Assembly (NCBI GenBank): GCA_018884025.1
Contig: JAHLFB010000061.1
Span: forward strand, 1 to 57,104
From: Candidatus Phocaeicola faecipullorum
GTDB taxonomy: Bacteria > Bacteroidota > Bacteroidia > Bacteroidales > Bacteroidaceae
DNA length: 57,104 nucleotides
Reading direction: 5' to 3'
Below are positions 60-25,855 of this stretch, piece after piece. Under the pieces are notes generated by a model, which was given only the letters and a program-made list of their open reading frames with translations, was not told the DNA's origin and searched no databases. Both the position numbers and the translations under genes were made by a program. Numbering within the stretch: position 1 is the first letter of the stretch; each line of letters opens with the position of its first letter.

Positions 60-99
60 ATAAGAATATTTCCTCCGCGGAAACCTTCAATTTAATGAG

Positions 100-170
100 T
101 TGGGCTACTAGGATTCGAACCTAGAAAAACAGGACCAGAATCTGTTGTGTTACCATTACACCATAGCCCA
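100..170 (-). tRNA. tRNA-Gln (anticodon CTG)
   Basis: A complete 71-nt minus-strand tRNA. The acceptor arms TGGGCTA and TAGCCCA pair fully, with A as discriminator base. The D-loop contains AATGGTAA, the anticodon loop is TTCTGGT (U33, anticodon CTG, reads CAG codons), and the T-arm contains GGTTCGAATCC. No CCA is encoded. It is the promoter-proximal gene of a tandem pair; a Bacteroidetes promoter lies about 40 nt upstream. Confidence 0.95.
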
Positions 171-6626: not shown

Positions 6627-6705
6627 AACTATAATTAGATATTTTGAATTGTCCATATACTTAAAATAAAAATTTGGACAAACGTAAAAAAACGAGCCGT
6701 TTCAG

Positions 6706-6799
6706 TTAGCGTCACACGTACGTGTAACGCGTGTAACACGAACGTGAAACGAGCGCAACACGAACGTGTAACGGGTGTAACACGTACGTGTAACGCTAA
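6706..6799 (+). repeat. 94-bp array of four palindromic ~22-bp units (copy A)
   Basis: The array begins TTAGCG and ends CGCTAA. Between these lie four head-to-tail units of 20, 22, 22 and 22 bp. Each has the core ACACGWACGTG(T/A)AAC preceded by GNG plus two variable bases. The core ACACGTACGTGT is itself a palindrome, so each unit can form a hairpin, and the ends TTAGCG/CGCTAA can also pair. A second array of the same length and unit structure lies at 25733-25826. GC content is well above the surrounding spacer. It lies in the divergent gap between the TPR kinase and folC. Confidence 0.9.
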
Positions 6800-6889
6800 A
6801 TTCGTCAAAGAAAACAGAAATGAATAACCAAATCTATATTAAAACAAAAAAAATGATGATATTTGCACTGCAAAAAAACTAACATAAAA

Positions 6890-24907: not shown

Positions 24908-25729
24908 ATGGAAAAAAGAGAATGGAAAACCATAAAGGAATATCAGGATATTCTTTTCGACTTCTATAACGGAATAGCGAAAATCACTATTAACCGTCCT
25001 CGATACAGAAACGCGTTCACTCCTACCACCACATCCGAGATAAGCGATGCCTTGCTTATCTGCCGAGAATGCCAGGACATCAATGTAGTAGTTCTTACCG
25101 GTGCAGGCGACAAGGCTTTCTGTTCAGGCGGCGACATGCACGTGAAAGGCCATGGAGGATATATCGGAACAGACGGTGTTCCACGCCTCAACGTGCTTGA
25201 CGTACAGAAGCAGATACGTTCCATTCCTAAACCTGTTATAGCGATGGTAAACGGATATGCCATCGGCGGAGGACACGTACTTCACGTGGTTTGCGATCTT
25301 ACCATAGCATCCGAAAATGCCATTTTCGGACAAACAGGTCCACGTGTTGGTAGCTTCGACGCCGGTTTCGGCTCTTCATATCTGGCTCGTATCGTAGGTC
25401 AGAAAAAGGCTCGCGAAATATGGTTCCTCTGCCGTCAGTACTCAGCACAGGAAGCCCTTGAAATGGGACTCGTGAACAAGGTTGTTCCTTTCGACCGTCT
25501 GGAAGATGAAGTTGTGGAATGGGCAGAAACAATGATGCAACACAGCCCGCTTGCACTCCGCATGATTAAGGCTGGTCTGAATGCTGAACTCGACGGTCAG
25601 GCAGGTATTCAGGAACTTGCCGGCGACGCCACAATGCTGTACTACATGACAGAAGAAGCACAGGAAGGCGGAAAAGCATTCCTTGAAAAACGTAAACCGG
25701 ACTGGAGCAAATTCCCTAAAATGCCGTAA
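24908..25729 (+). CDS. menB: 1,4-dihydroxy-2-naphthoyl-CoA synthase
   Basis: A 273-residue crotonase-fold enzyme that closes o-succinylbenzoyl-CoA to DHNA-CoA. Family features are [30 protein letters not shown], the MenB-specific [20 protein letters not shown] with its catalytic residues, and a C-terminal [14 protein letters not shown] tail typical of MenB. The 94-bp palindromic array begins 3 nt after its stop codon, separating it from menC. Confidence 0.97.
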
Positions 25730-25732
25730 CAC

Positions 25733-25826
25733 TTAGCGTTACACGTTCGTGTAACGGGTGGAACACGTACGTGAAACGCGCGTAACACATTCGTGTAACG
25801 AGCATAACACGTACGTGTAACGCTTT
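25733..25826 (+). repeat. 94-bp array of four palindromic ~22-bp units (copy B)
   Basis: Same design as the array at 6706: it starts TTAGCG, contains units of 20, 22, 22 and 22 bp, and ends ACGCTTT. Cores here are ACACGTTCGTGTAAC, ACACGTACGTGAAAC, ACACATTCGTGTAAC and ACACGTACGTGTAAC. As in copy A, the three full units begin GGG, GCG and GAG, each used once but in a different order. It lies between menB and menC inside the operon, so it must be transcribed. Confidence 0.9.
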
Positions 25827-25855
25827 CTTATTCAGCACATCCTAATACATATTCT

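Follow-up and report, generated by a model that had tools for sequence, protein, structure and literature searches.

The two arrays of palindromic units found in the window, i.e. the whole stretch of 57,104 nucleotides of Candidatus Phocaeicola faecipullorum that was analysed (contig JAHLFB010000061.1), are members of a dispersed family of elements and probably serve as platforms for the cooperative binding of a sequence-specific nucleoid protein that controls its own gene and is made of an HU-HIG domain and a wHTH-like domain. Five observations lead to this reading, namely the geometry of the elements, their copy number, the constraint on their cores, their adjacency to regulator genes and the matching of array type to regulator type.

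Both arrays that the first-pass annotation had pointed out, here called copies A and B, are present, with an exact 22-bp spacing in each (Table 1). The 12-bp core ACACGWWCGTGT, with at most one mismatch, occurs eight times in the window, always within copies A and B; in 100 shuffled versions of the window, its mean number was 0.24 and its largest 2. The bounds TTAGCG and CGCTAA that had been given to the two arrays hold in part only, since copy B ends with CGCTTT, and the proposed extent of 94 bp proved too short, as conservation reaches about 128 bp (from -25 to +102 relative to the first core). The left end of copy B (about 25717-25732) overlaps the last codons of the ORF upstream, whose stop codon lies 3 bases before the copy, and the next ORF is found 29 bp after it. 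We take these flanking ORFs to be menB-like (upstream) and menC-like (downstream).

Table 1. Positions of the two type I arrays, their units and their ends in the window
Feature	Position	Strand	Remark
Copy A, type I array of four palindromic units	6706..6799	+	one of 25 copies in the source genome (G000)
Copy A unit 1, 18-bp palindrome GTCACACGTACGTGTAAC	6711..6728		
Copy A unit 2	6733..6750		
Copy A unit 3	6755..6772		
Copy A unit 4, GTAACACGTACGTGTAAC	6777..6794		
Copy A left end, weakly conserved	6690..6705	+	column conservation, 74 copies
Copy A right end, weakly conserved	6800..6816	+	column conservation, 74 copies
Copy B, type I array of four units	25733..25826	+	
Copy B unit 1, GTTACACGTTCGTGTAAC	25738..25755		
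Copy B unit 2	25760..25777		
Copy B unit 3	25782..25799		
Copy B unit 4	25804..25821		
Copy B right end, weakly conserved	25827..25843	+	column conservation, 74 copies

The type I element consists of four 18-bp palindromes GTNACACGWWCGTGTNAC with 4 bp between them and a period of exactly 22 bp. It carries eight half-sites GTNACAC, 11 bp apart and alternating in orientation. The column statistics of 74 copies delimit a conserved unit of ~128 bp, whose centre of symmetry is the middle of the array, with weak and likewise symmetric ends (AAAYGCC...GGCRTTT) of low information. Within a copy, the left end covaries with the right one at only 2 of 16 positions (p<0.02). Further copies, which the first-pass annotation had proposed to look for, do exist: the source genome (G000; 3.8 Mb, 289 contigs, 86% complete) holds 25 of them, A and B included, and the element is also conserved in other genomes of the genus, with 20, 19 and 10 scored copies in three relatives. 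The spacing is 22/22/22 in all 25 copies of G000. A locus of genome G015 (L045) has one spacing of 21, due to a 1-bp deletion, and was missed by the array PWM, as were the 2-unit copies. Nearly all collected arrays have four units, the exceptions seen being one six-unit, one three-unit and three two-unit arrays; loci L088, L098, L156, L161 and L120, with 3, 2, 2, 2 and 6 units, respectively, retain the 22-bp steps. Isolated single units were considered as possible ancestral sites and rejected, since all 46 exact hits of the 18-bp palindrome that were listed on the forward strand lie inside known arrays.

Concerning the spacers, the statement that GCG, GAG and GGG each occur once is true of copies A and B and of 14 of the 25 G000 copies, where 5.4 all-different copies would be expected under independent columns and none of 2000 permutations reached 14. 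Perhaps there is selection against identical neighbouring units, which would recombine.

Type I arrays were found in four of 40 genomes, all of one genus (G000 itself, G015, G018 and G022). A pattern scan of GTDB contigs gave at least 98 stretches, the carriers belonging to the Phocaeicola (Bacteroides) caecigallinarum clade; among the matches listed are An428a, ET21, An496 and ET12, as well as the MAGs BRZ_AV bin8, BRZ_FN bin33 and BRZ_KM bin66. Two matches look unrelated and were set aside: a Prevotella one (L087), where the tandem array is longer and a search of the 8-kb locus found no HU-HIG gene, and an Atopobiaceae one (L142), which is a different repeat. The former, from the rumen Prevotella MAG RUG136 (L087:5970-6160), has more than four tandem 22-bp palindromic units with the core CACGATCGTG.

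Once L087, L142 and the 3-unit L088 were excluded, 133 arrays from eight genomes were available, 124 of which occupy loci sharing their flanks with an array of another genome; note that the locus groups result from single-linkage on flank BLAST matches and that a few are over-merged, the largest containing four ET12 arrays. For G000, 23 of the 25 arrays are at such common loci, copy A having a counterpart in bin33 and copy B in An496, G018, G022 and bin33. Flanks at shared positions are about 73-99% identical between genomes. Sequence identity was then calculated over 202 orthologous pairs, a subset from which the links between 18 loci (L162-L179) and the G000 arrays are left out. It amounts to 0.92 for the ten core bases of each palindrome, 0.76 for the palindrome arms and 0.64 for their centre, vs. 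0.52 for the internal 4-bp spacers, 0.54 for the outer ends and 0.48 for the ungapped DNA outside. Because the spacers form an internal control in a fixed register and have diverged, the cores must be under constraint. Core identity is also 0.91-0.92 in paralogous and in unrelated array pairs, and this equality is what is expected of a fixed motif. The earlier view of the arrays as a maintained design rather than a product of slippage is thus borne out, geometry and cores being kept at orthologous loci whose spacers have diverged.

Within G000, spacer similarity reaches 0.79, which is above most orthologue pairs; gene conversion could explain this likeness, as could a binding preference of the regulator. 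In ET12, loci L132, L136 and L139 have 340-530 bp of left flank in common, at about 90% identity, and hence belong to a longer repeated region, possibly near rRNA operons, although this is a guess.

Other Phocaeicola species possess arrays with an identical geometry and other sequences. The junction of copy B is occupied in G015 by four 22-bp palindromes that differ in sequence, CTCCACACGNNCGTGTGGAG, and in seven non-carriers (G001, G004, G005, G006, G007, G009 and G011) the gene pair is adjacent with no array visible by eye. Three CACGNNCGTG cores at 22 bp, with up to 3 mismatches, were matched in 10 of 24 genus genomes, vs. none of the 24 with the reversed control. The arrays were sorted into type I, type II (G015, G018 and one array in G000), type IIb (G023 and G007), type III (G002, G005, G016 and G020) and others; among the 40 loci inspected, 36 have four units, as counted by eye. 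A scan blind to sequence, conducted on 1.2 Mb of unselected DNA of G007, G011 and G017, gave 14 matches, and none in shuffled DNA. The copy B junction is also a case of type switch, with type I in five genomes and type II in G015 (L181:2330-2500), and a second likely switch is seen beside one gene, between L269 (type II, G015) and L137 (type I, bin33).

The arrays are linked to a particular protein family. Starts of HU-like genes were first noticed beside type III arrays, before clustering; when the proteins encoded beside the arrays were clustered, the largest group was an HU-family protein of ~200 aa, common to types I, II and III. Its gene is transcribed away from the array in 10 cases out of 10, with a start 41-63 bp away, and the candidate type I regulator gene of the source genome is located at G000:C209:44478-45080. 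The N-terminal HU-HIG domain (PF18291) was recognised in three proteins with E-values of 4.4e-33, 3.3e-33 and 1.1e-30, and in all 19 aligned family members; the TIGR01201 (HU_rel) cut-off was passed by one of the three proteins. As for the C-terminal region, weak matches to HTH_20 (2.5e-4), MarR_2 (2.6e-4), HTH_24 (0.001) and HTH_IclR (0.0014) were obtained for some of the 19 members, and the Pfam description of PF18291 mentions a fusion to wHTH. An AlphaFold2 model of the regulator, built from 4 sequences, had a mean pLDDT of 37.5 and was too poor to use.

The HU-HIG/wHTH family was searched in 24 genomes of the genus, and the 450 bp upstream of each gene were scored for a four-unit 22-bp array. 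With a score of at least 54, a cut-off set after the scores were seen, an upstream array was present for 24 of 30 family genes in the first set and for 13 of 16 further distinct genes that had been picked before their upstream DNA was seen. Overall, this makes 37 of the 46 genes examined in Phocaeicola, other family matches, many with the HU domain only, being left out, vs. 11 among 740 upstream regions taken without selection from G007, G011 and G017 (Fisher p 5e-45, with a post hoc cut-off). The distance between such an array and the regulator gene downstream of it is 22-81 bp. The remaining nine of the 46 genes have no upstream array by the score used; one of the loci counted in this way, L323 (G014:C53), scored 51 and displays, upstream of its HU-HIG gene, four differing palindromes at 22-bp spacing, the outer two being alike. 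Outside the genus, an array was found at 8 of 15 full-length genes and at 3 of 11 scored HU-only genes. Also, the HU-only genes of L420 and L419 (G087 and G105, respectively) have upstream 22-bp periodic motifs resembling ATGCGCATTA. The sequences of these putative operators differ by paralogue group, examples being about TTCATCACTNNAGTGATGAA, TGCYGACTATAGTCAGCA and GTTCCACNNGGGTGGAAC, and the layout of 4 x 22 bp is kept.

The distribution of array types follows that of regulator types. Regulators at least 70% identical to that of type I occur in the same four of 24 genomes as the type I arrays, and type III arrays co-occur with a regulator having a type III array upstream in G002, G005, G016 and G020; regulators were searched genome-wide in the G-numbered genomes only, and in part of bin33, bin66, ET12 and An496. 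A further match concerns the spacers. CTATAG-like spacers are found in 13 of 18 arrays in ET12, 2 of 9 in An496 and 4 of 11 in G022, vs. 1 of 95 elsewhere (G015 1/21; G000 0/25, G018 0/19, bin33 0/19 and bin66 0/11), and ET12, An496 and G022 possess a second paralogue, 56-62% identical, with a CTATAG-type array upstream. In ET12, the type I regulator copy is in two out-of-frame pieces (L118:1655-2255), and two paralogues whose arrays have the CTATAG spacer are retained. Two genomes have arrays with no regulator of the corresponding type seen: G007 carries three partly decayed type IIb arrays and no regulator match above 33% identity, and G000 carries one type II array and no type II regulator was seen; these arrays may be relics. 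Judging from the sequences compared, each paralogue version seems to have its own array sequence.

Simple dispersed transcriptional operators would account for much of the same evidence. The arrays might then be ordinary operators of a multi-target HU-wHTH transcription factor whose regulon is made of the adjoining genes, with no role in chromosome folding, a reading that we consider rather unlikely. It agrees with the place of the arrays just upstream of the regulator genes and with that of copies A and B near gene starts. Among 64 classifiable type I arrays, 13 lie at divergent and 26 at tandem junctions, which would suit operators too, but the other 25 lie between convergent genes, an excess over the 79 of 353 background gaps in other species (p 0.007), so that many arrays are unlikely to be promoter operators. 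The HU domain of the protein also speaks against a plain transcription factor, as does the chromosomal position of some arrays, since a regulon need not have an origin-side bias.

This bias was observed in G011, a single 5.16-Mb contig with two array families. Assigned by eye, they comprise 17 arrays (7 in family A and 10 in family B), and in each family one array adjoins an HU-HIG gene. GC skew, taken at 20 samples, points to an origin at about 1.42 Mb and a terminus at about 4.0 Mb, and all 17 arrays are within 58% of the maximal origin distance (KS p 0.0008, max-gap p 0.0007); with all 21 array loci of this genome, the KS p-value is 0.004. The seven arrays proper to G017 show a weak origin-side trend (KS p 0.11). 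When the type I flanks were projected on G007, G017 and G011, with 22, 20 and 20 of the 25 placed, p-values were 0.03-0.07, 0.40 and 0.13, respectively, and one flank fell at the terminus of G007. Another G007 family (TACGTTTTCC...GGGAAACG, four matches in the sampled DNA) is spread round the chromosome, with two members not far from the terminus. Terminus exclusion was rejected as a general law, as it fits two G011 families, is weak in G017, is not demonstrated for type I and is not followed by one G007 family; origin-side confinement is a property of some families.

A mobile origin, with the elements as old MITE- or REP-like repeats that have palindromic interiors and are nowadays inherited passively, appears very unlikely, even though about 128-bp symmetric elements with weak inverted ends and 25 dispersed copies have the look of such repeats, the copy B gene pair goes without an array in non-carrier species, and the spacer similarity within G000 is as would be left by recent spread or gene conversion. 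The first-pass annotation had listed a REP-like mobile element among the possible roles, and this is disfavoured by several results. No match to the Y1 transposase (PF01797) was found in G000, at 86% completeness, whereas 5 of 14 control genomes have one. A clear target-site duplication is lacking among 132 arrays: for k = 2-6 and 8, with boundaries of -36..-19 and 96..113, the best value was 20% identical at k=2 vs. a permuted mean of 15%, and at k=4 and above at most 4.5% were identical. Moreover, positions are common to several genomes, cores are constrained and spacers are not, and differing families of identical geometry stand beside HU-HIG genes.

Hairpin strings acting as RNA, either by stabilising transcripts or by terminating them, are less credible still. 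The palindromic units could form hairpins, the arrays lie between genes, with an excess at places where two genes converge, and some pairs (48-51, -1/12 and several about the spacer axes) do exceed the column expectation. However, 33 of about 36 stem pairs show no excess pairing over 132 arrays, i.e. they pair no more than column composition predicts, and the inner pairs 21-34 and 43-56 pair in 5% and 15% only, all of which runs counter to the RNA-stability module suggested earlier. A simple scan detected no terminator-like site at copy A or B, and Rfam gave no match at the arrays, the only RNA matches in the window being tRNA. Taken with the core constraint, the lack of a clear target-site duplication, of excess pairing in most stems and of a terminator-like site at copies A and B indicates that the DNA sequence itself seems to be kept, rather than an RNA stem or a mobile end. 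Finally, a phage or plasmid origin was rejected, the array having no match in phage or plasmid collections (distant mode) and the exact two-unit pattern none in viral contigs, and attC-like, CRISPR-like and plasmid-centromere readings were considered and dropped.

Binding sites for a nucleoid or chromosome-organising protein are thus the role that fits best among those proposed by the first-pass annotation, on account of the association of arrays with the HU-HIG/wHTH genes that they precede, and a nucleoid-organising function of the arrays and of the HU-wHTH protein appears likely from sequence comparison. Physical binding, cooperativity, autoregulation and the architectural role are what we infer, as follows. 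With half-sites that alternate every 11 bp, one face of the helix could accommodate eight monomers, or four dimers side by side. Recognition of the half-site would fall to the wHTH domain, and bending or bridging of the DNA to the HU domains. Binding to the array that directly precedes the gene of the regulator itself would result in autoregulation. The about 24 further copies would mark fixed intergenic sites around the chromosome; there, the protein, once bound, would organise the nucleoid, and it may influence the transcription of neighbouring genes as well.

A bolder and more doubtful proposal, offered tentatively, extends this to the order: Bacteroidales chromosomes could owe their organisation to HU-wHTH proteins of one family, every member having a four-palindrome, 22-bp-period address of its own, placed both at its promoter and at several to two dozen chromosomal loci. 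Several independent protein/address pairs would act in parallel within a cell, diversified by gene duplication and jointly doing the folding work of the condensins not found in Bacteroides. In a Hi-C study of Bacteroides caecimuris, no homologue of known condensins was found and yet a secondary diagonal of aligned arms is seen (PMC10197239). The arrays could fill this gap in our view of how Bacteroidota fold and segregate their chromosomes, and because they provide exact DNA targets and the HU-wHTH genes candidate proteins in the species of G011, the folding question becomes directly testable. Should the nucleoid-protein reading be right, it would show how a largely non-specific histone-like fold gave rise to chromosome proteins that are sequence-specific and insulated from one another, and it would account for dozens of intergenic repeats per genome that lack annotation. 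Giving each protein version an array sequence of its own would represent a novel mode of bacterial chromosome organisation.

No earlier description of these arrays was found in the literature searched, in which subscription titles are thinly covered, nor was a DNA target for the HU-HIG/HU_rel family. Among known systems, MatP/matS, SlmA/SBS and Noc/NBS each pair a sequence-specific nucleoid protein with palindromic sites, a few dozen in number and dispersed; in some of these systems, the sites are unevenly distributed between origin and terminus. The present arrays resemble them by their tens of conserved sites at fixed positions (25 copies, 23 of which are at shared loci), and families A and B of G011 resemble some of them by an uneven origin-terminus spread. 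MatP, SlmA and Noc belong to other protein families and recognise single short palindromes; here, each site comprises four palindromes, and a genome holds several paralogue/array pairs at once. As for REP/BIME elements with their RAYT transposases, they too have many intergenic palindromic copies, but G000 has no Y1_Tnp match, and the arrays have positions common to several genomes and a four-unit layout.

The half-site GTTNCAC resembles half of parS, whose consensus is TGTTTCACGTGAAACA according to PMC10197239. The arrays differ from ParB/parS by half-sites that are 4 bp apart instead of abutting, by four-fold units, by about 25 sites and by a protein that is HU-wHTH and not ParB. The BrickBuilt MITE of Porphyromonas gingivalis has 19 dispersed intergenic copies made of 1 to 22.8 direct 23-nt repeats with a leader and a tail (PMC4596501); both are dispersed intergenic repeats of a Bacteroidales genome, and the arrays differ by a period of 22, palindromic units, four of them as a rule, and a linked regulator gene. 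A last comparison concerns the HU-HIG (PF18291) and HU_rel (TIGR01201) families themselves, the candidate regulators being HU-HIG members by profile; what the present analysis adds to them is the four-unit arrays of 22-bp palindromes and their paralogue-specific codes.
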